DNA from: Opitutaceae bacterium
Lineage (GTDB): Bacteria > Verrucomicrobiota > Verrucomicrobiia > Opitutales > Opitutaceae
Reading direction: 5' to 3'
Length of the DNA: 37,246 nucleotides
Assembly (NCBI GenBank): GCA_025360455.1
Contig: JANYCF010000103.1
Location: forward strand, 1 to 37,246
A program made the position numbers and the translations under genes. Shown here piece after piece: positions 1,736 through 29,202 of this stretch (position 1 is its first letter; each line of letters starts with the position of its first letter). The notes beneath the pieces were generated by a model. The model searched no databases and had not been told where the DNA came from. It was given only the letters and a program-made list of their open reading frames with translations.

Positions 1736-1775
1736 AACGCCCCATGGCAGGCAATTTGTCGAAAGTATACTATTC
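1736..1775 (+). promoter_or_regulatory. stress-type promoter element, site A
   Basis: AACGCCCCATGG (1736-1747), an 18-base spacer and TATACTATTC (1766-1775) match the two-block element found before dps, the YXWGXW lipoprotein and others. It points at the small DUF1328-like gene at 1864, giving a leader of about 85 bases if transcription starts just after the second block. Confidence 0.55.
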
Positions 1776-1863
1776 GCTTTTCACAACTGAAAGCAATTTC
1801 CCCACACCCGATTGAATCGGAGAGACCCGACAATCCCATACAACTTCATCACCATTTTTATTT

Positions 1864-2037
1864 ATGTTAAAATACATTGTTAGTTATTTCGTGCTTACCG
1901 CCTTCTTTGCTGTACTTGGTTTTAGTCTATTGGCTGATACTGGTGCGACCATCGCCAAGGTTGGGTTTGCCTTTTTTCTGGTGATGTTTCTTGGCTCGTT
2001 ACTCTACAGGCCAGAGCGCAGACGTTCCGAAATTTAA
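1864..2037 (+). CDS. small DUF1328-like two-helix membrane protein
   Basis: This 57-codon frame starts MLKYIVSYFVLTAFFAVLGFS. It has two hydrophobic segments (about residues 4-23 and 31-47) separated by a short loop with DTGATIAKVG, and ends in a basic tail (RPERRRSEI). Length and layout (MLKY start, small helix, IAK, second helix FFLVMFLGSLL) match the DUF1328/YtjA family of small inner-membrane proteins, whose function is unknown but which often sit with stress genes. No clear Shine-Dalgarno precedes the ATG. A promoter-like element (1736-1775) lies about 90 bases upstream, shared with dps and other small stress genes. The gene converges on the sigma factor gene to its right. Confidence 0.75.
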   Translation: MLKYIVSYFVLTAFFAVLGFSLLADTGATIAKVGFAFFLVMFLGSLLYRPERRRSEI

Positions 2038-2200
2038 CAGACTTACGCTGACACTAGGTTGGTGCTGAAGCCTCACGGTGTGGTGCGCTTAGGGGAATTT
2101 CTTGGCGCATAGGGTCAAGCTCGGTCGCGCAGTTTTAGGCTAGGTGGTTGCTCACCGTACCGAACTGGCAACTTACTTTTGGTATGCCGGTTCTCCGGAC

Positions 2201-2959
2201 TCAGGCGCAGATACTTTCCTGACCATTGGTCGCAGGGACCATATCCAGCCATTGGTAAGGCGACATATTGGGATCAAAATCGGGATAGGTCTTGCTGAGC
2301 ATTTTCTGCAATTCCCGTCGAGCCCGGCCAATTCTGCTTTTTACTGTGCCGACCTTGATCTTAAGTGCACGGCCAATCTCCTCGTAGGAATGTTCGCATA
2401 CGTTGCGTAAGATCAGGATTTCGCGCTGATCGGCGTTCAGCTTGTCCATGCACTCTGCGACCAAGAGTGAAAACTCCTGGGTTGCCGTTTCCCGTACCGG
2501 ACCAGGGTTTTTGCAGGGAATCAGATCGGCATATGTCGCCTCGGTATCCGCACTGAGAGTGGAGTCGAATGATTGCGTCGCGTGGCGGCGGCGGCGGTGA
2601 AAATACCAATAGCGGTTGCGGGCAAGATTGAGGGTGATGCTCTGCAACCAGACGGCGAGTGATGATTCCCCGCGAAAAAAGGCGAGACTGCGGTGCGCGC
2701 GGATGAAAGTGTCCTGGGCGATCTCTTCAGCATCAGCGTGGTTGCGCAGGAGGCGATACGCGGCCTGCAGTATTTTTTCACGGTAGCGCATGACAATCTC
2801 GACAAAAGCTTCCTGGTCCCCGCGATTGAACCTGCGCACCAGTTCTGCATCCCGCTTCGCTTCGTGTTGAGCAGCGGCGAGGTGAGCGGCACGAGCAGAC
2901 GTGACGCGGCCGGATTTGGCAGAGCTGACAGAGCGAGAAAGAGGAATTTGTGCGACCAT
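2201..2959 (-). CDS. ECF-family RNA polymerase sigma factor
   Basis: The protein has 252 residues. Region 2 is seen around residues 38-105 (RRFNRGDQEAFVEIVMRYREKILQAAYRLLRNHADAEEIAQDTFIRAHRSL, then FRGESSLAVWLQSITLNLARNRYW). Region 4 lies around 165-222 (CMDKLNADQREILILRNVCEHSYEEIGRALKIKVGTVKSRIGRARRELQK), with a helix-turn-helix. It is longer than most ECF factors because of about 37 extra N-terminal residues and a C-terminal tail (DFDPNMSPYQWLDMV). No anti-sigma gene is adjacent. The ATG at 2959 is preceded by a very AT-rich stretch without a clear ribosome site, so an internal start is possible. It is divergent from dps, and CCATGGGGTATT (3006-3017) upstream is the reverse complement of the regulon's first block, suggesting autoregulation. 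Its target promoters are inferred, not shown. Confidence 0.92.
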   Translation of the reverse strand: MVAQIPLSRSVSSAKSGRVTSARAAHLAAAQHEAKRDAELVRRFNRGDQEAFVEIVMRYREKILQAAYRLLRNHADAEEIAQDTFIRAHRSLAFFRGESSLAVWLQSITLNLARNRYWYFHRRRRHATQSFDSTLSADTEATYADLIPCKNPGPVRETATQEFSLLVAECMDKLNADQREILILRNVCEHSYEEIGRALKIKVGTVKSRIGRARRELQKMLSKTYPDFDPNMSPYQWLDMVPATNGQESICA

Positions 2960-2977
2960 ATTATAAAAAATGCTGAT

Positions 2978-3017
2978 CTAAGTTACCGGAGAAATGCACC
3001 GGGTACCATGGGGTATT
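2978..3017 (-). promoter_or_regulatory. candidate autoregulatory promoter element, site I
   Basis: Read on the minus strand, AATACCCCATGG (3017-3006) matches the first block of the shared element at 11 of 12 positions against site B. The expected second block 18 bases on is only GGTAACTTAG, a poor match to CTATNNT. It would place transcription just ahead of the sigma factor ATG. The second block is weak, so confidence is limited. Confidence 0.35.
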
Positions 3018-3178
3018 GTGCTACAGGTCTTGCTGCCCGGTGGAATCGGTTAGCTTCCGGCCTGGTTTGAGGTGAGTGAGAAATGACCGGAGGCGTTGTG
3101 GTCCCGGATGGTTTGCGTGGGTTTTCCGGCACTCGCTCGATAAACGCATGAAGGGAGGACCTTGGCTCCTATGCCCTG

Positions 3179-3219
3179 AACACCCCATGGTGACCCGAGA
3201 GGGCCTCTGCTATCGTGAG
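3179..3219 (+). promoter_or_regulatory. stress-type promoter element, site B
   Basis: AACACCCCATGG (3179-3190), a 19-base spacer and CTATCGTGAG (3210-3219) form the same arrangement as sites C and D. It lies about 75 bases ahead of the dps ATG at 3293. An upstream ATG at 3215 in the dps frame falls inside the second block, which argues for the downstream start. Confidence 0.6.
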
Positions 3220-3292
3220 TGTAGGCTATTGCGAACTCTTGAAAAACTTCTCCGAACGAGTCTTCCGACTGCCACCTAATCCCACCTCAAAT

Positions 3293-3805
3293 ATGAAAAC
3301 AAACCTCACATCGGGTAATGATGGCCGCCAGGAAATGGGGCGGAAGCTTCAGCTGCTGCTTGCGGACGAGTACAGGCTCTACAAGATCACACATGACTAC
3401 CATTGGAATGTCACCGGGCCGGATGATCATGCTTTGCGGTTGCTGTTTCAGCTCCAACATGAGGAAGCTGCGGGTGGGGTTGATGATATTGCGGAATGGA
3501 TCCGCGTCCTTCATCTTGGTGCGCCCATCAACTGGACCGAATTAAGAGAATCCGCGCGCTGCTCAACCGTTTCTGGCGTTGGGCTGCCGGCCCAAAGTAT
3601 GCTCGCTGAACTGCTGCGCTCGCATGAAGAAATTATCGCGCAGCTCCACGCCGACAGTACTGTCTGTCTGCATGAGCTGGGCGATGCCTCCATGGCTGCT
3701 CACCTGACCGAGCTGAGAGAGCGGCAAGAAAGTGCTGCTTGGATGGTCCGGGCCCAGCTCGGAGCCACGTGGGAAAAAAACTGGCCTATCCCACTCTCGG
3801 CTTGA
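3293..3805 (+). CDS. Dps/ferritin-like DNA-protection protein
   Basis: The protein has 170 residues from the chosen ATG, the usual Dps length. It contains the hallmark DEYRLYKITHDYHWNVTGPDDHAL followed by LLFQLQHEEAAGGVDDIAEWIR, with the paired histidines and acidic residues of the intersubunit ferroxidase centre. Dps proteins form 12-mers in the cytoplasm, oxidise and store Fe(II) using peroxide, and often bind DNA in stationary phase or oxidative stress. The frame is open 26 codons further upstream, but that start would fall within the promoter-like element at 3179-3219. It is divergent from the ECF sigma gene, and both have the same first promoter block. Confidence 0.9.
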   Translation: MKTNLTSGNDGRQEMGRKLQLLLADEYRLYKITHDYHWNVTGPDDHALRLLFQLQHEEAAGGVDDIAEWIRVLHLGAPINWTELRESARCSTVSGVGLPAQSMLAELLRSHEEIIAQLHADSTVCLHELGDASMAAHLTELRERQESAAWMVRAQLGATWEKNWPIPLSA

Positions 3806-4048
3806 TCAGGGAAAATAATTCCTCCCGTTTTTTCCGTGATGATTTTATCCGACGGCGAGACGGCGGTGCGGCGAATTGGCTCGAGACATTGACCACGGTT
3901 CTTTGGTCCACGCTTGGACTCTCCTGTCGCAGGCGGCGCAGCCTATTCGGCTACGTTGTAGGGGAAGGCCACAATGCCTTTTTGTACGTCTTGGGATTAC
4001 CTGTGAAATGGAAAACTAAACACTGCCGTCTGCGGTAGTTCAGTCCCT

Positions 4049-6316
4049 ATGTTGCTCAATTCCAGACCCGCCCGTTTTTTGATCACCCGCCTCGCCCGGG
4101 CCTACGGATTTCTTGACCCGGTCAGTCTCGTCGCGCGAATGCGGGGCTTTGCCCAGCCTTCGGAAGTGGCGGAGCCGATCGAGTTGCTGCGCGCCGGCAT
4201 GCTTTTTCACGCGCGGGGGCTGGTGAACACGAAGGCCATCCAGAACAATCTCGACTGGATATGGCCTTACTGGGTGGAGAAACAATTTAATCCGGCCGAC
4301 GAATCGTTCATTCCCCGGGCGTTTTCCTTCAGTCATATCAATCTCACCCATCGCAACTGGACGGCGGTCGGATGGCCCGGTGTGCCGTGGTATCCGATTG
4401 TCGATCCGCGCGGGCTGGTGACGCCGCTCTACGACGGCTGGTCGCTCGATTTTTGGTTCGTGCCGGAGAACGGCCCGTTGCTGGCACCGTCGAAAAGCGG
4501 CGAATTCCAACAGTCTCTTGCGCTCACGGATAATCTCGTTGTCAGTTCCATCGCCACCTGGTCGGCGGCCTGCATTGCCACTAAGGTCAGGCTTTGTCTC
4601 ACGGGAGGTGAGCCGCATTGCCGCGTGAGCGTGCTCGCGCCTGCGGGAGAACGGGGGTTTGTTGCCGTGGTGCTCCGGCCTTACAATCCCGAGGGGATCA
4701 GCTTTGTGCACAATATCGCCCTTGCCTCGGATCGCCGGGGTTGGGTGGTAAACAAACGTCACACCGTGGAGTTTGACCGCGCGCCTGTGCGCCACGTCTT
4801 GTCGGTGTACAAAGAAGGAGACGTGGCCCAGCGCCTGGAGGAAACGGCGGATTTTTCCGAGCTGTCCGAGGTCGAGTGCCCTGTTGGACTCGCCACCGCG
4901 GCCGCCTTGTTCCCGATCGCGGAATTACAGGACGAGCCGCTGGAGCTGAGCATTCCCCTCTATGACGAACTCCATCCGGGGCGGCGTCCACGCTGTCCGG
5001 CGATACCCGGCTGGCGTGAAGCAATGGCGCCGCTGGCGAAACTCCAGGTGGGCGACCGGCGCACGCAGTCACTCTTCGACCTTGCAGCCAGCACACTGGT
5101 GCTGCTCACGCCGGAGGATGCCTATCCCGGTCCTTACACTTACAAGCGCTTCTGGTTTCGCGATGCGGCCTTGATGCTCAATGCGCTGCTGACTCTCGGT
5201 GGCGTCGAACGCACCCGCCGCGCCTTGGCTGGATTCGCTCCGCGCCAGCGCCGCGACGGTTATTTCCTTTCCCAGGAGGGCGAGTGGGATTCCAATGGCG
5301 AAGCGATCTGGATCTACCACCGCTTTGCCCTGCTGACGGGCGAGGAACTCCCGGCGAAGTGGCTCGAAGCCGTGAAGAAAGGCGTGCGGTGGATTCAGCG
5401 GAAACGTTTGCCGCTGAATGCGCACAGTCCCGGAGCCGGGCTTTTCCCCGCCGGTTTCAGTGCGGAACATCTCGGACCCAATGATTTTTATTACTGGGAT
5501 GATTTCTGGGGCGTCGCGGGATTACGCTGCGCCGCGGACCTGCTGGCGGCGACGAATGCTCAGCTAGCCGACGGGTATCGCCGTGAGGCTGCTGATTTTT
5601 TGGCGACGATTGAGCGCTCCGTGCCGGCCGGTCTGGAGCGACGTTTCCCCGGTGCGATGCCGGCGGCACCGACGCGCCGGATGGATTCGGGGGCGATCGG
5701 TTCGCTGGTGGCGGATTATCCGCTGCAAATTTTTCCGGCAGGGGATACGCGCATGCTTCGCACCGCCGACTATCTGCGGGAGCACAGCAGTTATGCCGGG
5801 GGATTTTTTCAGCACATGATTCACTCCGGCATCAACGCCTACCTGACGCTGCATCTGGCGCAGGTTTGGTTGCGGGCGGGTGAGGTGCCGAGAGTGTGGG
5901 CCATGATGGATTGCGTGGCCCGGCTGGCTTCGCCCACGGGCCAGTGGCCGGAAGCGATCCATCCGCGCACGCGCGGAGGTTGCATGGGTGATGGCCAGCA
6001 TGGTTGGGCGGCGGCGGAATGGGTGATGATCATCCGCAATTGCTTCGTCCGGGAGGAGGGTGATGTGCTTGTCGTTGCTTCCGGCGTCCGGCCCGAGTGG
6101 TGGCAGGACGCGCCAGCCAGTCTCGGGCCGGTGCTGACGCCGTTCGGACCGGTGACAGTAAACATAACCGGTGCGCCGGAGGGCGTTGCCGTACGGGTGG
6201 AAGGCGAGTGGCGGAACGCTGCGCCCCCTCTCCAAATCCGTTTGCCAGGCTTTACTTCGCTCGAATGCGTTCCTTCGGGAACGACGACCACGTTTCAGCT
6301 GACATCTCTTTTATGA
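4049..6316 (+). CDS. six-hairpin glycosidase-like protein (glycogen debranching/amylo-glucosidase type)
   Basis: This 755-residue protein has an N-terminal beta-rich half with many Trp/Tyr residues (NWTAVGWPGVPWYP, DGWSLDFWF). An (alpha/alpha)6-type C-terminal half follows from about residue 350 (TYKRFWFRDAALMLNALLTLGG, GEWDSNGEAIWIYHRFALLTG, NDFYYWDDFWGVAGLR, GQWPEAIHPRTRGGCMGDGQHGWAAAEWVMIIRN). The RFWFRDA and GQHGWAAAEW features are typical of six-hairpin glycosidases such as bacterial debranching or glucoamylase-like enzymes. No signal peptide is obvious. The stop overlaps the next gene's start (ATGA at 6313-6316), so it is coupled to the glycosyltransferase. Substrate is unknown; a role in glucan or glycolipid-linked sugar handling is inferred from its neighbours. 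Confidence 0.75.
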   Translation: MLLNSRPARFLITRLARAYGFLDPVSLVARMRGFAQPSEVAEPIELLRAGMLFHARGLVNTKAIQNNLDWIWPYWVEKQFNPADESFIPRAFSFSHINLTHRNWTAVGWPGVPWYPIVDPRGLVTPLYDGWSLDFWFVPENGPLLAPSKSGEFQQSLALTDNLVVSSIATWSAACIATKVRLCLTGGEPHCRVSVLAPAGERGFVAVVLRPYNPEGISFVHNIALASDRRGWVVNKRHTVEFDRAPVRHVLSVYKEGDVAQRLEETADFSELSEVECPVGLATAAALFPIAELQDEPLELSIPLYDELHPGRRPRCPAIPGWREAMAPLAKLQVGDRRTQSLFDLAASTLVLLTPEDAYPGPYTYKRFWFRDAALMLNALLTLGGVERTRRALAGFAPRQRRDGYFLSQEGEWDSNGEAIWIYHRFALLTGEELPAKWLEAVKKGVRWIQRKRLPLNAHSPGAGLFPAGFSAEHLGPNDFYYWDDFWGVAGLRCAADLLAATNAQLADGYRREAADFLATIERSVPAGLERRFPGAMPAAPTRRMDSGAIGSLVADYPLQIFPAGDTRMLRTADYLREHSSYAGGFFQHMIHSGINAYLTLHLAQVWLRAGEVPRVWAMMDCVARLASPTGQWPEAIHPRTRGGCMGDGQHGWAAAEWVMIIRNCFVREEGDVLVVASGVRPEWWQDAPASLGPVLTPFGPVTVNITGAPEGVAVRVEGEWRNAAPPLQIRLPGFTSLECVPSGTTTTFQLTSLL

Positions 6317-7608
6317 AAATCTGCATGATGACCAATACCTATCTGCCCCATGTGGGCGGTGTGGCCCGTTCTGTGAGCACCTTTGCCGAGGAATACCGCA
6401 AACTTGGCCATCAACTTCTCGTGGTCGCGCCCGAGTTTGACGGTCCGCCCCTGCCTGCGCGGCAGGCGCGGATGGTGGAACGCGTGGCCGCGATTCAGAA
6501 TTTCAATGGCAGTGATTTTTCCGTGCGGTTGCCGCTGGCCGCGACGCTGTCGACCAGGCTCGACGATTTCCAAGCGAATATCATCCATGCCCATCACCCG
6601 TTTTTGCTCGGCGATACCGCGTTGCGAGTCGGTGCGACAAAAAATGTGCCGGTGATTTTCACCCATCATACCCGTTATGAGGATTACACCCATTACGTGC
6701 CGTTTGATTCGCTGACGTTGAAGGAAGTGGCGATCAACCTTTCCACCCAGTTTGCCAATCTCTGCGACGGTGTCATCGCGCCCAGCGAGAGCATCGCCAA
6801 GCTCATCCGGAAACGCGGTGTCACGACGCCCATCGCAGTGGTGCCCACGGGGGTCGATGTGGCGGGCTTTGCGGCCGGGGACGGGGCGAAGGCCCGGCGC
6901 CGGTTCAAGATTCCCGCGAAGGCATTCGTGGTTGGGCATACGGGGCGGCTGGCCCCGGAAAAAAATCTTGGTTACCTGACCAAAGCAGTCGCACTGTTCC
7001 TGAAAAAAACTCCGCATGCCCGTTTTCTCGTGATTGGTGGCGGGCCGTCCGAGGAGGAAATCCGCCGTATTTGCACGGAGCAGGGCGTCGGAGCCCAGCT
7101 GATTCTCGCCGGCAAGCACACTGGCCGCGCCCTGCATGATGCATTCAAAGCCATGGATGTTTTCGCGTTTGCCTCGTTCAGCGAAACGCAGGGCATGGTG
7201 ATCGCCGAGGCCATGGCCGCAGGCATCCCCGTGGTTGCCTTGAAGGCCAATGGCGTGGTCGAGGTGGTGCGCGATGGCCTGAACGGTTTCTTGCTGCCCG
7301 CCCGCACGCCGCCCGCGAAATTTGCGGCGCGAATGGGGGAATTGCACGCGGCCCCGGCCCGGCGGCGGCAGTTCAGCCGCGCGGCGCTGGCGACGGCCAA
7401 AGAATTTTCGCGCGAGCATTGTGCCGCGTTGGCGTTGGAATTCTATGATAAAATCCGGAAGGTGACCCGCCGTGAGCGGTTGATGACCGAAATGAGCGTG
7501 TGGGGATCGCTCGGGCAGCGTCTCGCCATGGAGTGGGAGTTGCTCTCGCAAAAAACCCAGACTCTTGTCGCCGCTTTTAAAGGCGAACCGGAGAAGAAGG
7601 CTTCATAA
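6313..7608 (+). CDS. GT4-family glycosyltransferase, diacylglycerol-glucosyltransferase-like
   Basis: The start ATG overlaps the preceding stop as ATGA; a longer in-frame extension back to 6097 lies inside the upstream gene and was rejected. The 431-residue protein begins MKICMMTNTYLPHVGGVARSV and includes IIHAHHPFLLGDTALR, HHTRYEDYTHYVP, VVPTGVDV, GHTGRLAPEKNLGYL and the donor-site EX7E motif in FSETQGMVIAEAMAAGIPVV. This is a retaining GT-B fold of family GT4. The N-terminus and the YEDY motif resemble bacterial 1,2-diacylglycerol glucosyltransferases and SqdX-like lipid transferases, although sugar acceptor specificity cannot be read from sequence. The next gene encodes a membrane-anchored phosphodiesterase-EEP fusion, which makes a lipid-linked role plausible. 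Confidence 0.85.
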   Translation: MKICMMTNTYLPHVGGVARSVSTFAEEYRKLGHQLLVVAPEFDGPPLPARQARMVERVAAIQNFNGSDFSVRLPLAATLSTRLDDFQANIIHAHHPFLLGDTALRVGATKNVPVIFTHHTRYEDYTHYVPFDSLTLKEVAINLSTQFANLCDGVIAPSESIAKLIRKRGVTTPIAVVPTGVDVAGFAAGDGAKARRRFKIPAKAFVVGHTGRLAPEKNLGYLTKAVALFLKKTPHARFLVIGGGPSEEEIRRICTEQGVGAQLILAGKHTGRALHDAFKAMDVFAFASFSETQGMVIAEAMAAGIPVVALKANGVVEVVRDGLNGFLLPARTPPAKFAARMGELHAAPARRRQFSRAALATAKEFSREHCAALALEFYDKIRKVTRRERLMTEMSVWGSLGQRLAMEWELLSQKTQTLVAAFKGEPEKKAS

Positions 7609-7614
7609 TTCGTC

Positions 7615-10669: not shown

Positions 10670-10747
10670 CTAAATTAAATTATGGAGTCCGCGTGAACCG
10701 GTAGATTGGGCTCATCTAGGCCGGCGAAAGGGTGCCGGGTTGAAGGA

Positions 10748-12109: not shown

Positions 12110-12287
12110 GGCTGCATCCCACCGACAGGGCCGGAAATCGATCCGGACGATGCCAAGGAGGATATAACCTTAACCGATGATTGCCTGAGAGGTTCCCCCA
12201 TTTTTAGAAAACCATCCGGTTCGGTGCATTAATCCTTGGTAACATCATTTCTCCATAGCGGTCATAGGCGTAGCATTTCTTTCTAAA

Positions 12288-12965: not shown

Positions 12966-13034
12966 CCGGTGGCCGGATGATAATGTTTGGTAACCGGGAC
13001 GCCAGTTACGGGTCAAAGTGAAAAACCATTTCCT

Positions 13035-13763
13035 ATGCGCGTCTTGTTTGTATTTTTTTCACTCACATTTCTCAGCCCCGTCTTCGCCGACACTCCGCCC
13101 CTTCTGCAACAGGCGGCGGAAAAATGGTTGGGGGAACGCGACAACTGGGCGTTTACCATGCTGGTCCGCGAATTTGATGGAGGCCGGATCAAGGAGGAAC
13201 GTACGGAACGCTATGATCCTTCACAACCGGGCGTCGCCCGTTGGGCTTTGCTTTCCGTCAATGGAAAGCCGCCGGCCGAAGAACGCCGGGCCGAATGGCA
13301 GAAGCACAAAACGAAGAAGAGGAAAAATCCGGGCAAGCCGCTCAACGAATATCTGGAATTTGACCGAGCCACCGTGGTGAAGCAGGATGCGGAGATGGTC
13401 TGCTATAACCTGCCACTCCGCGCCAACCATGCTTGGCTCTTCCCACTGGACAAAGTTTCCCTGCGCGTGACCGTCAATAAATCCACTCTGGCCATCGAGG
13501 ATGTCGCCGCTGGCATCGATGAGCCCTTCAAGGTGGCGCTGGGGTTGGCCCAGGTCATGAACGTCGATATTGACGTGCAAATGAATCCGCCTGAGCAAGG
13601 CGGCGACAAAGCCGATCCGGCGGCCGCGAAACCTGAGGGCACGGCTCGCGCCGTGGTGAGCAAGTTCGGGGAGCGGATTGAATATGGCTGGAGTGATTTT
13701 AAACGTGTCACGCCTCATCCCGACAACGTGATCGCCCGTTCACCCCAGGATGAAAAGAAGTAA
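13035..13763 (+). CDS. secreted protein of unknown function
   Basis: The protein has 242 residues from the ATG at 13035, which is chosen because it gives a signal peptide at once (MRVLFVFFSLTFLSPVFADT, likely cleavage after VFA). The frame is open further upstream to 12987. The mature part has no recognised motif. It is charged and contains a Lys-rich stretch (KHKTKKRKNPGK) and a central segment (VVKQDAEMVCYNLPLRANHAWLFPLDKVSLRVTVNKSTLAIEDV) that looks like a beta-sandwich typical of periplasmic lipoprotein-carrier-like folds. It lies 69 bases after the VTT gene on the same strand and may be co-transcribed. Confidence 0.75.
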   Translation: MRVLFVFFSLTFLSPVFADTPPLLQQAAEKWLGERDNWAFTMLVREFDGGRIKEERTERYDPSQPGVARWALLSVNGKPPAEERRAEWQKHKTKKRKNPGKPLNEYLEFDRATVVKQDAEMVCYNLPLRANHAWLFPLDKVSLRVTVNKSTLAIEDVAAGIDEPFKVALGLAQVMNVDIDVQMNPPEQGGDKADPAAAKPEGTARAVVSKFGERIEYGWSDFKRVTPHPDNVIARSPQDEKK

Positions 13764-13814
13764 CGCTTCAAATGTTGGCGGGTCGCGGGGTTTTCGCGGA
13801 CGGGAACGGCCAGC

Positions 13815-14336
13815 TCAAAGAATCGTCGTGCTGGCTTTGACTTTTCCGTAAGCATCTTGGGTTCGCATCCATGCCCGACCGACTTTATCCTTCCGCTGAT
13901 TCCAGGTTTCAGGATCGGCTTTGCGCAATTCTTCGCCGGTGGATTTCAGATAAACCCGGGCATCGCCCATTTCCTTCATGGCGAAATCCCAATCCTTGGT
14001 GTCCACGGTGCTGTTCAAGGTGGCGCGTTTGGCGTTTAGTTCTTGGATCTGTTCATCCACTTGGGCTTCCAATTTTTCCAAGCCCGCAAAAAATTGGGCG
14101 CGGTTGTCGTAGGTGTAGTCCTTAAGGTCGATCCAGCGGGTGGAGGCAACGTTAGCCTCAGCTGTGGCTACAGGTTGAAACGTGGCTTGAGTGGCAACAG
14201 CGGGCAACGTGTTGTCCGCCGAGATCCGGCCCGCCATCACGACTGGCGGTGTTTTCTTAGGGCAGCCAGCGGCGAAAAATGCAGCTAGGCTGAGAATGGC
14301 AAAGGTCATTATATGAAGAAAGGGTTTTGTTTTCAT
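13815..14336 (-). CDS. lipoprotein of unknown function
   Basis: The protein has 173 residues with an N-terminal lipoprotein signal (MKTKPFLHIMTFAILSLAAF, then FAAGC, Cys at residue 25). The mature part has a Thr/Ala-rich linker and a helical region (about 70-165; LEKLEAQVDEQIQELNAKRATLN...EEL) probably forming a coiled coil. It lies 53 bases downstream of the YXWGXW lipoprotein gene on the same strand, so both are probably transcribed from site C. Confidence 0.8.
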   Translation of the reverse strand: MKTKPFLHIMTFAILSLAAFFAAGCPKKTPPVVMAGRISADNTLPAVATQATFQPVATAEANVASTRWIDLKDYTYDNRAQFFAGLEKLEAQVDEQIQELNAKRATLNSTVDTKDWDFAMKEMGDARVYLKSTGEELRKADPETWNQRKDKVGRAWMRTQDAYGKVKASTTIL

Positions 14337-14389
14337 GTCGGTGCTTTAATCGCCGGACGGTGGTTGTTTTGATACCGTTCCTCTTTTGG

Positions 14390-14827
14390 TTAGTTCCAAT
14401 AGCCTTCGTAAAACTTATAGGCATTGCCGTGCTGCTCCCAACGCGGTGCGACCCAGACCGCGCCCGTATTTGGCGGCAGTTCCCAATGGCCAGCCATCCA
14501 CTCATAGCGGTTGTTGCGCCAGGTCCAGTAGCCGGCGATCCATACATGCTGCGACGAGGGTTGAGCCAGCACGACCTCTTGTTGCACGGCGGGAGGGGCC
14601 TGAGTGACGACAATGGTGTTCGGGACGGACGTTGTCGGTGTGGCCGTAATGATTGTTTGGGTCGGGGCAGGAGGAGGCAGGGCGGAAACAAGGTGCGAAT
14701 CCGGTTCGCTGGCACAACCGGTGAGCAAAACAATAACGCCGCAGCAGGCAAGCAGTGCGGTCATAGGCCGGGCCGGGTGACCGGCGGCCGAGGCTGAAAG
14801 AGGACGATCAATCATGGTAGGTTTCAT
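14390..14827 (-). CDS. YXWGXW-type repeat lipoprotein
   Basis: The C-terminal part carries the aromatic repeats VWIAGYWTWRNNRYEWMAGHWELPPN...WVAPRWEQHGNAYKFYEGYW, matching the YXWGXW/WXXGXW repeat family of surface lipoproteins. A lipobox is seen in CGVIVLLTGC followed by a Pro/Thr-rich linker. The start is uncertain: ATGs at 14827, 14815 and 14764 are all in frame, and the promoter-like element at 14831-14870 would start transcription near 14827. That favours 14815 or 14764, or a leaderless message. Function is unknown, with an envelope location. It probably forms an operon with the lipoprotein gene that follows it. Confidence 0.8.
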   Translation of the reverse strand: MKPTMIDRPLSASAAGHPARPMTALLACCGVIVLLTGCASEPDSHLVSALPPPAPTQTIITATPTTSVPNTIVVTQAPPAVQQEVVLAQPSSQHVWIAGYWTWRNNRYEWMAGHWELPPNTGAVWVAPRWEQHGNAYKFYEGYWN

Positions 14828-14830
14828 GAC

Positions 14831-14870
14831 GAAAATATAGCGCACTCATTTTTTGGCGCTATGGGGCGTT
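14831..14870 (-). promoter_or_regulatory. stress-type promoter element, site C
   Basis: On the minus strand AACGCCCCATAG (14870-14859), an 18-base spacer and CTATATTTTC (14840-14831) match site D at 20 of 22 block positions. It drives the YXWGXW lipoprotein gene. ATAGCGC and GCGCTAT inside it also form an inverted repeat. Confidence 0.6.
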
Positions 14871-14976
14871 CTGCCACCATGCACGCTGCGGTAATTTTAT
14901 TATCATTCGAACGCGTTACGGTAAACACCCACTGTTTCTCAACAGAAGAGCCGGGTATAGTCGGGCACGTTAATTT

Positions 14977-16032
14977 ATGACAAATTCAACCGGTGCCCGC
15001 GTATCACTCTTGTTGGGAAAGAAAACGACCGTGGCTGAAAAAACAAAAATGTGCGGGCACGTGTCCGAGGAAGATTGCGCCCGCTACGGCCATTATTTCG
15101 TGGGCGCATTATTTGCCTTCAGCCTATTTCCGTTGGTGGTCAGCCGCAGCACGGCCGCTCCGGTTGAAAATACTCCTGTGCCGGCGACGCACGGAGAGGG
15201 GATTTTCCCGCCCGCCGTCCCGTTTGTCCACGGCGACGATGAGTTTCTCATCCCCGAGATCTTTCAGGGGCACCTGCCCACGACATTGGAAAAATCCGCG
15301 CTGCGGTTTTCGATGAATCCACGCGTCGATGATTTGCAAAACAAGGATCACATGCGCCTGAGCACGGGCTTGCGCTACGGCGTGTCGGAGAACTTTGAAG
15401 TGAGCGCGAGTAGCGAGCTGTATTTCAGTCATGGTCGCGGAAACATCCGCTCTTTTGAGGATTATGGGGCGGCTGATTTGAAACTCGCCACTAAGATCAA
15501 CCTCGGGGAACCATTTTTACCCGGCTGGAAAGTCGGCACCGGGTTTGCGTATCAGTTTCCGACCGGGCGGCCGCCGGCCGAGCTGACCGATGGGCTGCGC
15601 CATTTCATGCCTTACGTCACGTTCTCCCACCGGCTTGAGTCGCATCCCGCCATGCGGATATTCTTTGGCTTTCGATTCGATGTCCTGGACCACACTGGCA
15701 TTCAGGGAGAATTTGGAAAAAATTCACTCCATGATAATTCATCGGGTATCACGGGTGGGTGGGTAATCGATCGCAAGAACTGGCACTATACGTTCGAGGC
15801 CTCATACGATACGACGCGATGGATGAGCCACTCCGTCGCGGATGTGTATGAGATACGCCCCGGAGTGATGTGGGAAATTCCCAAGCGAAACTATCCCCAG
15901 CTGAAGAGCAACTGGCTTGTCGGCGTCGCCCTAAAAAGCACTTTCGGCCCCGGTGGGACCAGCTTGGGCGCCTCGTTCCGGCTTCGCTACAGTCGCGATT
16001 TCAAGCATCTGTTTCGTCGTGCTCCACGATAG
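14977..16032 (+). CDS. probable outer-membrane beta-barrel protein
   Basis: The protein has 351 residues. A signal-like hydrophobic segment lies at about 41-62 (YFVGALFAFSLFPLVVSRSTAA), which means either an unusually long N-region or a later start. The rest alternates short hydrophobic strands with polar turns (LRLSTGLRYGVSENFEVSASSELYFSH, KVGTGFAYQFPTGRPP, MRIFFGFRFDVLD, NWHYTFEASYDTTRW), ending in FRLRYSRDFKHLFRRAPR. This is the pattern of outer-membrane barrels of the phenol-degradation/MetA-like type. Specificity is unknown. It is divergent from the YXWGXW lipoprotein gene. Confidence 0.7.
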   Translation: MTNSTGARVSLLLGKKTTVAEKTKMCGHVSEEDCARYGHYFVGALFAFSLFPLVVSRSTAAPVENTPVPATHGEGIFPPAVPFVHGDDEFLIPEIFQGHLPTTLEKSALRFSMNPRVDDLQNKDHMRLSTGLRYGVSENFEVSASSELYFSHGRGNIRSFEDYGAADLKLATKINLGEPFLPGWKVGTGFAYQFPTGRPPAELTDGLRHFMPYVTFSHRLESHPAMRIFFGFRFDVLDHTGIQGEFGKNSLHDNSSGITGGWVIDRKNWHYTFEASYDTTRWMSHSVADVYEIRPGVMWEIPKRNYPQLKSNWLVGVALKSTFGPGGTSLGASFRLRYSRDFKHLFRRAPR

Positions 16033-16073
16033 AATGAATCGGGTGGTCCTATACTGGACCCGAACAGGGGGGA

Positions 16074-16352
16074 TCAGCGGGTGGAGGCAGCTGATCGCTT
16101 CTTGCGCCGGGGAAGCATGGCCCTTGCTTTTTTCAACCCACGTTTCGCCCAATTAAATTCTGAGGCCAGAATCGCCAGTCCCAGCGGAATGACAATAAAA
16201 GCCGGGCCGGGCAACACCAGCATGGCGATACCGACGACCATGACACCTCCGCCCGCGATCGCGATTCCGACCTTGCGCACAGCAGGCAAGTTCATTTTGC
16301 CCCGATACTGGCGGTATCGGGTGATGAAATATTTTATCATGAAGCGTATCAT
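16074..16352 (-). CDS. PGPGW-family small transmembrane protein
   Basis: The protein has 92 residues with two helices joined at the family motif. GIAIAGGGVMVVGIAMLVLPGPAFIVIPLGLAILASEFNWAKR shows the VLPGP...LGLAILA(S/T)EF pattern of the PGPGW family, with PGPAF replacing PGPGW. Both ends are basic (RQYRGK, RRKKRS). Its function is unknown in the family. It is the only gene between the convergent barrel gene and the terminator-like hairpin at 16522-16553. Confidence 0.8.
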   Translation of the reverse strand: MIRFMIKYFITRYRQYRGKMNLPAVRKVGIAIAGGGVMVVGIAMLVLPGPAFIVIPLGLAILASEFNWAKRGLKKARAMLPRRKKRSAASTR

Positions 16353-16521
16353 TTAAGTTGGCTGGAGGGGGAAGGTTGCTCAAAGCGGCAGCCACAGTGA
16401 ACGCAGGGCCGGGGCGGTTTCTCGCTTCCCGGTTAATTTCTCGGCCAATTACCACAGGTTTGGTTTTCGGTTGGCGCAGGGAGAATGCTTCAATGGCACT
16501 CGCAGAATTGGGATCGGATCG

Positions 16522-16553
16522 AAAGCAGGAGCGGGTAATTCCGCTCCTGCTTT
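16522..16553. terminator. strong intergenic hairpin downstream of csbD copy 1
   Basis: AAAGCAGGAGCGG (16522-16534) pairs perfectly with CCGCTCCTGCTTT (16541-16553), a 13-bp stem with a 6-base loop. It lies just after the stop of the minus-strand csbD gene and fits a rho-independent terminator, with the T-run forming part of the stem. Confidence 0.7.
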
Positions 16554-16563
16554 AAGTCTTTCC

Positions 16564-16770
16564 TTAATTGCAGTCGCAGTCGGCGTTGCATTCCTTGATG
16601 GCTTTTTCGATCGCCTCCCGGGTTTCTCCGGTGCGTTTTTGTATGCGGCCGATCAGCTCGTTGTCTCGGCCTTCAGAATATTGTAGGTCGTTATCGGTGA
16701 GCTTGGCCCACTTCTGTTTCAGTTTTCCTTTGGTGATGTTCCAGTCGCCTTTGATTTCTAGGGTGGTCAT
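16564..16770 (-). CDS. CsbD-family stress protein, copy 1
   Basis: The protein has 68 residues. It carries the CsbD core: IKGDWNITKGKLKQKWAKLTDNDL followed by EGRDNELIGRIQKRTGETREAIEKAI. Its C-terminus is Cys-rich (ECNADCDCN). CsbD proteins are small, hydrophilic and strongly induced by general stress in many bacteria; their biochemical role is unknown. A second copy is at 20740. A version of the shared promoter element (site E) lies about 80 bases upstream. Confidence 0.92.
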   Translation of the reverse strand: MTTLEIKGDWNITKGKLKQKWAKLTDNDLQYSEGRDNELIGRIQKRTGETREAIEKAIKECNADCDCN

Positions 16771-17155
16771 GATATTTTGATTTGTTTTTTGTGTTTATTA
16801 TTCGTCGCCGGAGTGGCGGCAAAAGTGAGGTCTTGGCCCGGGATGGACGAATATTACTATCGGACAGCGCTTTTTTCTATGGGGCAAAAACCGGCAGTAA
16901 ATTTATCCGGTCTGTCGGCTCCGGCTATAACCGGTGGACCCAGAATCCTCGCTCCTTTTTCAGGCCGAGGCCAAGAGGAGTGATCTGGCTCAGGCGGTTG
17001 AAGCGATTTGTTTTCATATTATTATTTAAACAGCCGGAAGGATTGCGGGTTTCTCAGCTTGCTGAGGGCGATGTCAGCACGGAGAAAGTTTTGCGTGGTG
17101 CGTGCATGGTGCGGAGGAGCGGAGCTTGCTTTTGTTTAGGCGGGGATGAAGTCGA
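16771..17155. other. intergenic region upstream of csbD copy 1
   Basis: No convincing gene is present. The stretch contains promoter-like site E and, at its right end, the alternative-frame tail discussed with the orphan ORF at 17156-17365. Confidence 0.5.
16850..16888 (-). promoter_or_regulatory. weaker stress-type promoter element, site E
   Basis: On the minus strand TTTGCCCCATAG (16888-16877) is followed 16 bases later by ATAGTAATATT (16860-16850). The CCCCATAG core is exact, but the flank and the second block deviate. It is placed correctly for csbD copy 1. Confidence 0.4.
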
Positions 17156-17365
17156 TCAGACGGACGATGCGGGCGAAGACGTGGGGCGCGTCCTCCGGCT
17201 GTATTGGGCAGGTTCCAGCGCATCAGCGGAGTCGAGACCGCGGCGGAGAAGAGCTTCATCCTCTGAAATATTCTTCGGTTCAATCAAGTCGGACCGGAGC
17301 ATGCCGGCGGCAAGATGTTGGTGGCGAGTGGGGAGCTGGTCTTCGTCAATGCTGGAAGTTTTCAT
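17156..17365 (-). CDS. orphan small ORF behind promoter site D (possibly frameshifted)
   Basis: A 69-codon frame starts MKTSSIDEDQLPTRHQHLAA and continues LRSDLIEPKNISEDEALLRRGLDSADALE before becoming Ser/Arg/Pro-rich. I recognise no family. It lies about 90 bases downstream of an excellent promoter-like element (17460-17500), the main reason to believe it. Near 17210 another frame reads PIQPEDAPHVFARIVRLIDFIPA to a stop at 17136-17138, which looks more protein-like than the end of this frame. One frameshift would join the two into a gene ending at 17136. It could be a sequencing error, a decayed gene or coincidence. Confidence 0.35.
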   Translation of the reverse strand: MKTSSIDEDQLPTRHQHLAAGMLRSDLIEPKNISEDEALLRRGLDSADALEPAQYSRRTRPTSSPASSV

Positions 17366-17459
17366 CGTGCAGGCGGGTGAGGCGGACCGATGTTTTGGGA
17401 ACATCTAATGAAGCCTCGCATTCCCCCCGCAGGACAGGGAATTGAACTGAGGCTACAGT

Positions 17460-17500
17460 GAGAATATAGTCTGCAATCCCAATGGCCGCTATGGGGTGTT
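17460..17500 (-). promoter_or_regulatory. stress-type promoter element, site D
   Basis: On the minus strand AACACCCCATAG (17500-17489), a 19-base spacer and CTATATTCTC (17469-17460) give one of the best matches to the shared element. It points at the orphan ORF at 17365. Confidence 0.55.
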
Positions 17501-17633
17501 TAGATTATATAGACGTCCCACAGTTGTGCGGCCAGCTTTTGTACCGGTGGTGACAGCCGGTGCCGCAGACGGAGAAATCTTTCATGCCCAACGTATGTCT
17601 GGGCGGCGTTGTTCGTTGGCGGCCTGCGGTGCT

Positions 17634-19340
17634 TCAGCGGGAATTTTTCTTTCGGCTCTTGTAATCAGAAACAAAAATACTGATGACCAGCCAGAAACCA
17701 CCGGTGGCGGCTGCGAAAAAACAAAGAATGGCCAGTCCGGGATAGCCGAAGAGTTGAAAGGTGGTCGCCACACGCATCAGCAGGGCCGCGCCCACAATCA
17801 GGCCGGCCAGCACTACGCCCATGGTAATGCGGTTCGCGATTTTCTGCATACCGTCGAGCACCATCTTCGCGTCGGTGGCCTTCACTTTCACCTCCAGCTC
17901 GGAGTTGGTGACCGCATCCATGATGCGGTTGAGCCGCGCCGGGAGTCCCGACGTGAAATCCTTCACTTCAAGCAGCGAGCTGTAAATGTTGCCTTGGGTG
18001 AGATCTTGGCGGATGCGCCGGGACATCAGCTCCGCGACATTGCGGCGGATGGAGGCATTGGGATCAAACTCCGGATCCAAAATCCGGCCAACTTCATCCA
18101 ATTGGAGCATGGTTTTCCCGAGCAGCACGAGTTCACTGGGCACGATGAGGCCGTTCGCCTGAGCGATGCTGCTCACTTCGAGCAGGGAGCGCCCGACATT
18201 AAGCTGCTCCAATCCCTGGTCCCGTCGCAGCGCCACCAACTGCGTGATGCGCCGGCGAAATTCGGCCATGGCAAATTCCTCGAGTTTCTCGCTCATGCAG
18301 ATGGCGGTTTCTGCGGCCGCTTCGCCGTTTCCCTCGCTGACGGCCAGCAGTATCTTCAGCAGATTTTCCTGCATGGCCGGTGCGGTATGCCCCACCATAC
18401 CGAGATCGATCAGGGCAATGCGCCCGTCGTCGGTAATGAAGACATTCCCGGGGTGAGGGTCCGCATGAAACAATCCATCCACGAGCACCTGTTTCAGATA
18501 GGCTTGGAACAGTTCCTCCGCCAGCGGCGCGCCTTTCAGTTCGAGCCGGGCGACGGGGCCGAGCGTGGTGATTTTCTGCCCTTGCACCTCCTCCATCGTC
18601 AGGATCGACCGCGTATAATAATCGGGCACCGGTTGCGGCACCTGGAGGAGTTTAAATTCCTGGAGATTTTTTCCGAGCGCGATCAGATTGTGCGCCTCGC
18701 GTTCGTAGTTGAGCTCCTGCTGGATCGTCAGACGAAATTCCTGCAGGATGACCAGAAAACGATGGCGGCGACCTACGGCGGTGTGGCCGTCGAGGAACGT
18801 GGCAATTTGTTCCAGCACCTCGAAGTCCTCGGCAATTTGCTGGCGGATGTTGGGACGTTGTACCTTCACGACGACCGCCCGGCCATCGCGCAACGCAGCG
18901 CGATGTACCTGGCCGAGCGAGGCTGCGGCCACCGGCTCGCTCTCGAACCGGGAAAACGCTTTGGAAATCCTGACGCCCAGTTCGGTCATCACGATCTGCT
19001 CCACCTCAGCGTAGGGGAAGGGCTTTACCTTGTCCTGCAGCCGGGCGAGCGCTTTCAAATAAGCGTCCGGGAGCAGATCCGGTCGTCCGGCGAGCACCTG
19101 TCCCAGTTTGACGTAGGTCGGTCCCATTGCTTCCAGATCATCCGCCAGTTGTTCGGGTGAAACCGGGTCAGCTCTCGAAGCGGCGGCGTCTTGTTTCGGC
19201 CGACCGTCGGCGGGCGGATTTTTGTCGAGGCCGAAACCCTCTTCAGTGCTCAGGTGTTGGGCGAGGTCGGAGCGGCCGTACTTCCAGAGAAGAGCGGCAA
19301 TTTGACGGTAACGTTTAAAATGGGTGGCGGAAAATTTCAT
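17634..19340 (-). CDS. ABC1/UbiB-family atypical kinase (AarF-like)
   Basis: The protein has 568 residues from the ATG at 19340 (MKFSATHFKRYRQIAALLWKYG), preferred over an in-frame extension to 19403 because it gives the usual family N-terminus. Family motifs are the KxGQ motif in GPTYVKLGQVLAGRPDLLP, the Ala-rich nucleotide loop VAAASLGQVHRA, the invariant Lys in VVVKVQRP, DGLFHADPHPGNVF and ALIDLGMVG. Two C-terminal transmembrane helices follow (about 505-528 and 533-555). UbiB/ADCK proteins are membrane-associated ATPases that support quinone biosynthesis and lipid homeostasis. No ubiquinone or menaquinone gene is nearby, so pathway assignment stays open. Confidence 0.93.
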   Translation of the reverse strand: MKFSATHFKRYRQIAALLWKYGRSDLAQHLSTEEGFGLDKNPPADGRPKQDAAASRADPVSPEQLADDLEAMGPTYVKLGQVLAGRPDLLPDAYLKALARLQDKVKPFPYAEVEQIVMTELGVRISKAFSRFESEPVAAASLGQVHRAALRDGRAVVVKVQRPNIRQQIAEDFEVLEQIATFLDGHTAVGRRHRFLVILQEFRLTIQQELNYEREAHNLIALGKNLQEFKLLQVPQPVPDYYTRSILTMEEVQGQKITTLGPVARLELKGAPLAEELFQAYLKQVLVDGLFHADPHPGNVFITDDGRIALIDLGMVGHTAPAMQENLLKILLAVSEGNGEAAAETAICMSEKLEEFAMAEFRRRITQLVALRRDQGLEQLNVGRSLLEVSSIAQANGLIVPSELVLLGKTMLQLDEVGRILDPEFDPNASIRRNVAELMSRRIRQDLTQGNIYSSLLEVKDFTSGLPARLNRIMDAVTNSELEVKVKATDAKMVLDGMQKIANRITMGVVLAGLIVGAALLMRVATTFQLFGYPGLAILCFFAAATGGFWLVISIFVSDYKSRKKNSR

Positions 19341-19537
19341 GAGCAGGATGCCGCTGCGGCTTGTGTAAGACACAAGGCAGACAGTCGGCATGCTTAATGA
19401 CACTTAATTTGATCCGTGGTCCCCCGCGAGCAGCTGATTTTAAAATAAGAGCACGAAGTTACCCTTTAACAAGGAACCCTCTATCCTGTTTGCCTTTCCT
19501 ATCCACCGGGTGCGTTCACTGTGCCCATCCAACCTAT

Positions 19538-19858
19538 ATGTTCAAAGCCGCCAAAGATGTTCTCGCCAGCCGGGGTGCTCAGACCTGGGCCAATAATCTT
19601 ATCGCCCGCTACGGCAGGGTGGAGGATTTGAAGATCGATTCCCGTCTGAAAACGATGGAAGCCACCTGTTTTCTCGAGGGGGAAGCCACGCCCATCACGA
19701 TCAAGGTGGAAAACTATGTGGTGGAAACGGAGAGCGCTAAAACATACATCCGTGCGACCAACTTCACCTGCACGCGGCCTTGGTTGCAAAAAGTGCTGAC
19801 GGACTTTGGTCCGCAGAAAAAGATCGAGCTGCCACCTTGGGCCGCCCCCCTATTGTGA
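19538..19858 (+). CDS. hypothetical cytoplasmic protein
   Basis: The protein has 106 residues from the ATG at 19538, which starts at a natural helix (MFKAAKDVLASRGAQTWANNLIARYGRVEDLKID). A beta-rich body follows (LKTMEATCFLEGEATPITIKVENYVVETESAKTYIRATNFTCTRPW). No family is recognised. The frame is open upstream to 19361 in unremarkable sequence. It has no signal peptide or membrane helix, and is divergent from the UbiB-like gene. Confidence 0.6.
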   Translation: MFKAAKDVLASRGAQTWANNLIARYGRVEDLKIDSRLKTMEATCFLEGEATPITIKVENYVVETESAKTYIRATNFTCTRPWLQKVLTDFGPQKKIELPPWAAPLL

Positions 19859-19900
19859 GCGTGCTGGCAGCGGAGATTTGTTAATCATCCGCAGCTTGGG

Positions 19901-20056
19901 TCAGGCTGCTTCGCGAAGGTCAGCCCGCGCATCATCCGGATTTTTCTGATCAAAGCCGGGACCTTCTTCCAGCCAGGCATGCTCATAGTCGCAGGCTTCG
20001 CACAGGACGCTGAGTTCTTCCCACAATCTGTCTTTAATCTGACGGAGGGCGTTCAT
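19901..20056 (-). CDS. small acidic orphan protein
   Basis: This 51-residue frame starts MNALRQIKDRLWEELSVLCE. It is acidic and helix-prone and contains CEACDYEH, a possible metal-binding or redox pair. The frame extends back to 20182, but that upstream part includes promoter-like site F, so the start at 20056 is preferred, giving a leader of about 90 bases. No family is recognised. Confidence 0.45.
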   Translation of the reverse strand: MNALRQIKDRLWEELSVLCEACDYEHAWLEEGPGFDQKNPDDARADLREAA

Positions 20057-20150
20057 GGAATCGTAGGGTTGAAGTTGAACCGATGGCACAAACCGGCCGA
20101 CGGGCCAGCTGCTCCATGGAGAATACGAATGGTTTTCATCGGAAGAGAAG

Positions 20151-20191
20151 GGGAGGATAGTCGATTCCGATTTTGGCTGCAATGGGGCAGG
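20151..20191 (-). promoter_or_regulatory. stress-type promoter element, site F
   Basis: On the minus strand the block CCCCATTG (20187-20180) is followed after 19 bases by CTATCCTCCC (20160-20151). The core deviates by one base from CCCCATRG and the AAC flank is missing. It faces the 51-aa ORF ending at 19901. Confidence 0.4.
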
Positions 20192-20224
20192 GACCTACCG
20201 GTCGATCGGTCGGATCGGTCGGGT

Positions 20225-20263
20225 TTTGCCCTATGGCGGAGACCGGACTTTGCCTGTATTTTG
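20225..20263 (+). promoter_or_regulatory. weaker stress-type promoter element, site G
   Basis: CCCTATGG (20229-20236) differs from CCCCATGG at one position. It is followed after 17 bases by CTGTATTTTG (20254-20263). It lies about 45 bases before the 42-aa peptide gene and back-to-back with site F. Confidence 0.35.
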
Positions 20264-20306
20264 AGCACGTTCCTACTCATCATAAACCTTCCCTCTCTTA
20301 ATTCCC

Positions 20307-20435
20307 ATGAATGATCTCGCTCTCCTTGCCCTCCCCCTTGCCGCTGCCGGCTATTCGCTGGTTTACATGATTTTTGGCGGCGGCCTCTTTGGGGCCGTCG
20401 TTATTTTCATCGTCGCCAAGCTGCTGGGAAAATAA
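20307..20435 (+). CDS. 42-aa hydrophobic peptide, paralogue 1
   Basis: The frame reads MNDLALLALPLAAAGYSLVY, then a Gly-rich turn (FGGGLFGA) and VVIFIVAKLLGK. One long or two short membrane helices with a basic C-terminus are likely. It is clearly homologous to the 41-aa peptide encoded at 25173-25298 on the other strand: the same ALLALPLAAAGYS start, FGGG turn and IFIVAKLLGK end. Conservation between two diverged DNA copies argues strongly that both are translated. No named family is recognised. A promoter-like element (site G) precedes it. Confidence 0.75.
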   Translation: MNDLALLALPLAAAGYSLVYMIFGGGLFGAVVIFIVAKLLGK

Positions 20436-20739
20436 AAAATAAGCGGCGCGAATCCACGCGCGGATGCTGCTGCGCCACGTCCAGCAGGCTGATCTGCCCG
20501 GGTAACGATTGCTGGCAGATTGTACCGCCGGCTTCCGCTATTCGGGCAAATTGCGCCGCCCAGAAGTCTTTGTTTGCAGCGCAGTTATTTTTAAGGCCAA
20601 GGCCATCAATCGCGGCTGTGACCGGCATGGAATTGGCGTGAACGTTGCGTCCTCCCGGGCCAAGACGCGGCCCATTTTGATGAACTGTCTGGTCTGTTAT
20701 TCCTCTTAACCGCTGTGCTCATCAAACCACAAAAATAAC
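20436..20739. other. intergenic stretch with possible decayed coding remnants
   Basis: On the minus strand two frames look partly protein-like: MGRVLAREDATFTPIP near 20670-20625, and a frame reading DFWAAQFARIAEAGGTICQQ near 20570-20510, separated by a frame change. No family is recognised. Promoter-like site H lies at the right end. Confidence 0.25.
20666..20705 (+). promoter_or_regulatory. weak stress-type promoter element, site H
   Basis: GCCCATTT (20670-20677) followed after 18 bases by GTTATTCCTC (20696-20705) is a degenerate version of the shared element. It is placed about 35 bases before csbD copy 2. On its own it would not be called. Confidence 0.25.
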
Positions 20740-26561: not shown

Positions 26562-26677
26562 GCCGGTGGCAGAGGACATGTGTGAACCACAACCTGTGCG
26601 AGGTGTCTTCAGTTAATGCGGTCCTTTCTGGCGATTTTCCCGGATTTCCGCAACGCGGTCCTTCTTCAATCAGCAAC

Positions 26678-29175: not shown

Positions 29176-29202
29176 GGACGGATTGGTTGGGAAACCTCGG
29201 GA

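Follow-up and report, generated by a model that had tools for sequence, protein, structure and literature searches.

Results

A two-block element in front of small stress genes

We analysed a 37,246-nucleotide stretch of DNA from an Opitutaceae bacterium (the window; contig C283 of the bacterium's own 4.85-Mb draft genome of 405 contigs) and find that small genes of the stress type share a two-block promoter element, which can be written as a strict 12-mer, AACRCCCCATRG, or in a relaxed form, CCC[CT]AT-N22-TANNNT. Four strict 12-mers lie at 1736 (+), 3179 (+), 14870 (-) and 17500 (-), exactly where the original prediction, made from the window alone, had placed them. Its estimate of about 0.02 such 12-mers by chance agrees with 500 dinucleotide shuffles of the window, which gave a mean of 0.022 and never reached four.

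Site A (1726-1773, +) consists of a GGTAGGG half, AACGCCCCATGG at 1736-1747 and a -10 that reads either TATACT (1766-1771, at N18) or TACTAT (1768-1773, at N20); 3' of it lies the gene of a DUF1328-like small membrane protein (1864-2037, +; Pfam DUF1328 E=0.002, under the curated cut-off). The gene of an extracytoplasmic function (ECF) sigma factor resembling RpoE, SigW and SigM (2201-2959, -) belongs to a clade whose sampled members bear the element upstream, and its own site, AATACCCCATGG-N20-TAACTT (2980-3017, -), 20 nt ahead of the ATG, had been overlooked. Site B, AACACCCCATGG-N20-TATCGT (3169-3216, +; 12-mer at 3179), precedes a Dps-like ferritin gene (3293-3805, +; Pfam Ferritin 7.5e-16), which likely starts at ATG 3293, because a start at GTG 3215 would overlap the -10. 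Site C, AACGCCCCATAG-N19-TATATT (14834-14880, -; 12-mer at 14870), serves a WXXGXW lipoprotein gene (14390-14827, -; Pfam WXXGXW) whose ATG coincides with the predicted +1, as in a leaderless transcript. The two-block match TTTGCCCCATAG-N20-TAATAT (16851-16888, -) stands 5' of CsbD copy 1 (16564-16770, -; Pfam CsbD 5.7e-15), and site D, AACACCCCATAG-N20-TATATT (17463-17510, -; 12-mer at 17500), 5' of an 82-aa orphan open reading frame (ORF) with no Pfam match (17156-17404, -). Two divergent sites follow: a GGTAGG half with CTGCCCCATTG-N20-TATCCT (20154-20201, -; a two-block match at 20191), facing a 51-aa ORF positioned at 19901-20056 (-), and a GGTCGGG half with TTTGCCCTATGG-N20-TATTTT (20215-20262, +), facing the gene of a 42-aa hydrophobic peptide for which no family was found (20307-20435, +). 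Across the window sites, 6 to 97 nt separate the -10 and the first ATG of an ORF that has at least 40 codons.

The second block had been described as CTATNNT-like and 18-19 bases downstream; a second block is indeed present, but it is better written TANNNT and placed 20 bases past the 12-mer, as at 3179 and 17500, with N19 at 14870. Among the four weaker forms proposed earlier, those at 16888 (-), 20191 (-) and 20225 (+; first given as 20229) hold up, each with the exact N20 spacing, whereas the candidate before CsbD copy 2 (20740-21012, +; Pfam CsbD 3.9e-12) is doubtful: it reads GCCCAT-N22-TATTCC (20670-20703, +), with the final base wrong, and was left out of all counts. The relaxed form occurs seven times in the window, at 1736 (+), 3017 (-), 3179 (+), 16888 (-), 17500 (-), 20191 (-) and 20225 (+), against a mean of 0.16 and a maximum of 2 in the same shuffles; at 14870 (-) the spacer is one base shorter than in these seven. 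CCCCAT alone is rarer in the window than in the shuffles (17 versus 27). The 12-mer alone with up to two mismatches is not above chance there (9 found, 10.7 expected), and the weaker window forms therefore depend on the second block.

Copies elsewhere in the genome

The exact 12-mer occurs 12 times in the 4.85 Mb, 4 of them in the window, and its reversed control pattern not once; with up to one mismatch the counts are 87 and 37. TANNNT stands at N20 after eight of the 12 exact copies and at N19 after the one at 14870 (-); for two others, C7 and one on C382, the second block is not convincing. Exact sites outside the window head a KaiC operon (C306) and the genes of a BON-domain OsmY-like protein (C249), a 50-aa DUF3309-like protein (C90; named by eye) and a second WXXGXW-like lipoprotein similar to that of the window (C89). 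On C360 an exact site accompanies a dps-like gene, and the sigma gene has a second copy there, oriented divergently to it.

Spacing and architecture of the element

The strongest evidence for the element is a peak in the distance between its two blocks. It was measured in 613 kb of loci picked by three protein queries, namely BON, the sigma factor and a response regulator, RR1, described below. After CCCCAT, TANNNT stands at N22 in 82 of 284 cases (72 of 261 once overlapping stretches are removed) and at every other spacing from 8 to 35 in 0-4. These loci are enriched in sites, because the query proteins were first noticed near sites, yet the spacing peak is independent of the motif. Control hexamers in the same loci give 1 (TACCCC), 0 (ATGGGG) and 0 (CCACCT) at N22; TACCCC, which overlaps the element, gives 6 at N24. 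After ATGGGG, TANNNT stands at N8 in 10 of 284 cases, above other spacings. When relatives were sampled by the exact 12-mer only, 8 of 30 copies have TANNNT at N20 and other spacings give 0-2, so that the remaining copies are likely due to chance. That the element as a whole reflects chance or base composition is ruled out by the spacing peak, and we regard it as next to impossible.

The full architecture is GGTAGGGY-WACRCCCCATRG-N20-TANNNT. Most of 18 aligned sites read GGTAGGNN-AACGCCCCATAG, and 4 of the 18 have a YTATGCYCTG-like upstream sequence with AACACCCCATRG. With TANNNT taken as the -10 (T at -12), the spacer has 17 bp, the 12-mer spans -44 to -33 and its TRG occupies -35 to -33. In 208 nonredundant sites CCCCAT and TANNNT were fixed by selection, so that only the free columns count as evidence; these are G-48 (91%), G-47 (84%), W-44 (98%), A-43 (84%), C-42 (72%), R-41 (99%) and G-33 (74%), with R-34 also conserved. 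The upstream block is an inverted repeat of 15 bp that is imperfect, reads TAGGGT-N3-ACCCCA and has its centre near -43; the most frequent forms, GGTAGGGT-TAC-ACCCCATRG, display it. Among ORFs with at least 40 codons, start codons are most frequent 6 nt past the -10, at the predicted +1 (32 of 208 sites; 0.6 per offset in a control stretch 150 nt upstream), and a second group lies 12-14 nt past it (35 of 208). Since start codons peak at the predicted +1, many of the mRNAs should be leaderless or nearly so.

Thus the element has the layout of a class II activated sigma70 promoter, with T-12, A-11 and T-7, a 17-bp spacer and a dyad near -42, the dyad being imperfect; the TANNNT letters of the 208 sites were part of their selection and are not independent, and the spacing peak comes from loci chosen without reference to the motif. 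In sigma32 promoters CTTGAA lies upstream of a CCCCAT-type -10. A reading of CCCCAT as such a -10 was dropped, given that a conserved second block lies downstream; no CTTGAA occurs in the 10 bases aligned upstream of the 18 sites.

An ECF promoter has a GAAC-like -35 about 16 bp before its -10, and at the spacing peak the AAC of the element begins 32 bp before the -10 T. Geometry and inverted repeat therefore make it more likely that the first block is read by an activator, acting together with a sigma70-type polymerase, than by the ECF sigma factor. The original prediction had named either a sigma factor or an activator as the possible reader; the activator class fits, and we consider an activator plus sigma70 polymerase the likely mechanism.

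Range across relatives and the gene set

Throughout, G-numbers denote sampled genomes, L-numbers sequence stretches and C-numbers contigs. A sequence model of the element (R1, E<=0.05) finds matches in 80 of 252 genomes of the family. Relaxed sites occur in 18 of 30 loci retrieved by the BON search, and many closer BON orthologues from several genera have the site at the same position before the gene. No such block lies just before the script-placed start in four BON loci at 59-71% identity (G029, G035 C70, G028 and G006), and the stretch holding the BON copy of G009 C43 contains no upstream sequence.

A strict pattern of about 39 bits, with roughly one chance hit expected by estimate, was run over 84,980 species and returned 28 records. 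Of these, 24 bear a Verrucomicrobiota label and two come from cyanobacteria; the other two are labelled 'PVC group' and 'uncultured bacterium'. Where the pattern leaves two positions free, 16 of the 28 hits have GGGT, completing the left half of the repeat. The Verrucomicrobiota records represent 20 assemblies by accession prefix, some already in the family sample, and span Opitutaceae, subdivision 3 and Verrucomicrobiales, with one labelled Methylacidimicrobium and one labelled Akkermansia. The element is thus found across the phylum. The two cyanobacterial hits (L397, L418) are homologous loci sharing a homologous ORF, and probably reflect chance plus common descent.

Genes 3' of the strict-pattern sites encode, as named by eye, BON, OsmC-like, DUF892-like and PRC-barrel-like proteins and small membrane proteins. 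BON/OsmY, Dps, CsbD, DUF892/YciF, OsmC and ElaB are members of known general stress regulons. The kinds of target resemble those of E. coli RpoS, Bacillus SigB and alphaproteobacterial EcfG/PhyR, represented here by BON/OsmY, Dps, CsbD and DUF892/YciF (by Pfam) and by OsmC-like and ElaB-like proteins (by eye); many stress genes share the one promoter. Unlike in those regulons, no alternative-sigma promoter signature is needed here, and the upstream block is an activator-like inverted repeat. The idea of a shared promoter element before stress genes, likely marking a general-stress regulon, thus gains from spacing, relatives and gene set alike, and we hold a promoter class with a stress-type gene set to be very well supported.

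The ECF sigma factor as a probable target

The genes of the stress sigma factor are themselves preceded by the element. Both copies of this genome fall into a 10-row clade (support 86/93) in a tree built from 33 sigma proteins, and the element lies upstream of 10 of 10 clade genes and of none of the 23 others, one of which has a lone CCCCAT; starts were placed roughly in some rows. Independently of start placement, 7 of 30 sigma-search loci contain a relaxed site, and all seven belong to the clade. Because clade genes carry upstream sites, the stress sigma gene appears to be a regular target. In L421, L422, L424 and L426 sites stand back to back between BON and sigma gene, separated by 46-71 bp as measured in match coordinates. 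G139 has a further, distinct sigma factor (L323:4342-5004) directly 5' of the BON promoter.

The same pattern would be expected if the ECF sigma factor of the window read the element itself, as a long -35 plus a -10, and controlled its own gene: the element marks its clade and not the other sigma rows, relaxed sites in sigma-search loci keep to that clade, and the sigma gene and the BON promoter often point in opposite directions. Against this, the AAC at -44 lies some 9 bp too far out for a -35 by the usual ECF spacing, the -10 is TANNNT, and 20 conserved base pairs with an inverted repeat exceed what sigma region 4 reads. Sites are also present in genomes with only a core-like sigma factor of 48-50% identity (genus g2, that is G013 and G108-G112, as well as G036 and G255). 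We therefore consider the sigma factor an improbable reader.

A core sigma factor, nearly ubiquitous in the family sample and for that reason considered together with a core response regulator, was dropped as a reader; 8 stretches of 19.9 kb around these two core genes contain no site. In L083, L085, L088 and L089 the core ECF sigma and core regulator genes are divergent neighbours with an apparent tRNA gene (by eye) between them. This pair may be the ancestor of the stress sigma factor and RR1.

RR1 as candidate activator

RR1 is encoded upstream of this genome's BON promoter (L004:1972-2655, -), directly after a PAS-HisKA_3 kinase, and has REC and GerE domains above cut-off (95.2 and 68.8 bits). 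A kinase gene directly precedes RR1 on the same strand in 37 of 46 loci with RR1 of at least 50% identity; 2 of the other 9 stretches are too short. Like NarL, DevR(DosR) and VraR-type regulators, RR1 combines REC with a LuxR helix-turn-helix and matches VraR, NarL and DevR structures by sequence; it scores below the threshold of all 25 NCBIfam models listed. The GGG...CCC inverted repeat resembles DevR boxes, and to our knowledge the site sequence itself has not been described for NarL, DevR(DosR) or VraR-type regulators.

Relaxed sites occur in 27 of 52 RR1-search loci (26 of 46 at RR1 identity of at least 50%), compared with 1 of 30 loci of an unrelated response regulator of the window (21171-21833, -), the one being the window itself; this second regulator was accordingly dropped as a reader. 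These two counts give the unbiased measure of linkage. Twelve RR1 neighbourhoods of 12 to 20 kb hold sites in 11 cases (33 in total; G060 has RR1 without any site) and a sigma gene of 55-66% identity in 7; because they were mostly chosen for known linkage, they describe an island rather than test it. At E<=1e-60 RR1 is found in 85 of the 252 family genomes, 51 of which are among the 80 with sites (p=1.3e-11, not corrected for descent). The DNA pattern on its own picked out 26 non-cyanobacterial stretches, of which 3 contain RR1 (58-78% identity) and 2 the stress sigma gene; one of the three (L394, from G076) and both sigma stretches match genomes already sampled.

Several observations weigh against RR1 as the dimeric reader of the repeat. 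The two halves of the repeat do not match perfectly, and the inner letters of its left half are poorly conserved (G-46 51%, T-45 45% of the 208 sites). RR1 is missing at E<=1e-60 from 29 of the 80 site-bearing family genomes, in a search that scored few candidates per genome and overlooked at least one copy (G222); when all candidates were scored, in 17 of the 29, the best matches were no more than regulators of 36-41% identity. The site-bearing genomes with only a core-like sigma factor are likewise without RR1. Conversely, 34 genomes with RR1 have no site match at E<=0.05, and some of these hold relaxed sites (G052, G055 and G057, for example). Because the 17 leniently searched genomes carry sites and no RR1, we only infer that RR1 is the reader, and the same holds for its binding, the activation, the signal and any Kai input.

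That sites persist where RR1 is absent and the only sigma factor is core-like would also follow if the promoter class were as described and its reader were another dimeric transcription factor conserved in Verrucomicrobiota, with RR1, the kinases, kaiC and sigma as regulon members or island neighbours. As the BON gene and the sites travel together, gene content alone could explain the linkage between RR1 and sites. Among the clustered neighbourhoods listed, read by eye in short stretches and with a minority of their ORFs run against Pfam, no other DNA-binding family was seen to recur beside sites, which speaks only weakly against such a reader. We consider such a reader possible, if on the doubtful side. 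That RR1 binds the element, with GGTAGGGTTACACCCCATAG as its putative target, and acts as its activator is our reasoned guess, with about equal prospects of being right or wrong.

A Kai module near RR1 in several genomes

On C306 an exact site heads the series [97-aa ORF]-kaiC-kaiB-kaiB-kinase, its -10 about 326 nt before the kaiC ATG. This KaiC is double-domained, scores 721.5 against PRK09302 (cut-off 408) and has 8dba, 8fwi and 8db3 as its closest solved relatives; both KaiB proteins are above the Pfam cut-off. In G135 a site lies 94 nt before the kaiC start, and upstream of kaiC in G004 only a CANNNT form is present, which we did not count. RR1 and kaiC share a stretch in G004, G038, G159, G215, G251, G266, G198 and L408, and RR1 and kaiB in G194 and G166; 5 of 46 short RR1 loci contain kaiC. 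One strand of L408 carries kaiC, a pair of ORFs that by eye resemble KaiB, a PAS kinase and RR1, one after another. Long proteins whose beginning looks CheB-like to the eye are encoded repeatedly in the vicinity of sites (L207:7485-10658, L126, L259), and in G004 a protein of this kind lies between the KaiC-linked kinase and the RR1 kinase.

KaiC, two KaiB domains and an operon kinase are shared with the KaiC2/KaiB systems of proteobacteria such as Rhodobacter, Rhodopseudomonas and Legionella; unlike there, a NarL-type regulator and a stress promoter are attached here.

Other features of the window

The stress-rich contig also carries a split nonhomologous end joining cluster (26582-30054) in which an ATP-dependent ligase (+), a LigD primase-phosphoesterase (-) and Ku (-) are separate genes. 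A 73-aa ORF at 31581-31802 matches only the first part of a response-regulator receiver domain, under the cut-off, and is either a fragment or a short single-domain protein.

Discussion

We propose that the element is the bipartite activated promoter of a general stress regulon. Its downstream block would be a sigma70-type -10 (T-12, A-11, T-7), and the inner edge of the upstream inverted repeat reaches to -35, where a bound dimeric activator could contact the polymerase in class II fashion. The likely activator would be RR1, of the NarL/LuxR type, usually encoded just 3' of its kinase and in several genomes adjoining kaiC, two kaiB genes and a second PAS kinase. With an active kinase, RR1 would turn on small envelope, DNA-protection and osmotic genes, and also the kaiC operon, as well as the ECF sigma factor as a second tier. 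We give this explanation, taken whole, an even chance.

The literature on the phylum contains no general stress regulon of Verrucomicrobiota among the matches listed, and that on Verrucomicrobia ECF and promoter mapping, on Opitutaceae and Opitutales stress and on Verrucomicrobia Kai contains nothing on the element among the matches listed. The element points to a previously undescribed general stress response of Verrucomicrobiota, which may be connected to clock-like Kai proteins.

A further step would be a general stress response common to Verrucomicrobiota and based on sigma70, with a KaiC-KaiB-kinase module providing the input of a NarL-type regulator and this regulator binding TAGGGT-N3-ACCCCA at -43; we put this forward tentatively, as rather unlikely in all its parts. 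Passages of PMC5520375 state that RpaA-type output is nearly absent outside cyanobacteria and name the reader of Kai timers there as an open question.

Given so sharp a promoter signature, the members of the regulon can be identified with nothing but sequence in a phylum difficult to cultivate, and the link between kaiC, kaiB, kinase and DNA-binding regulator makes it testable which factor reads Kai timers outside cyanobacteria. If the proposal is true, the response would be the transcriptional output so far missing for a KaiBC timer outside cyanobacteria, the kai operon would belong to its own regulon, and many of the target mRNAs would be leaderless.

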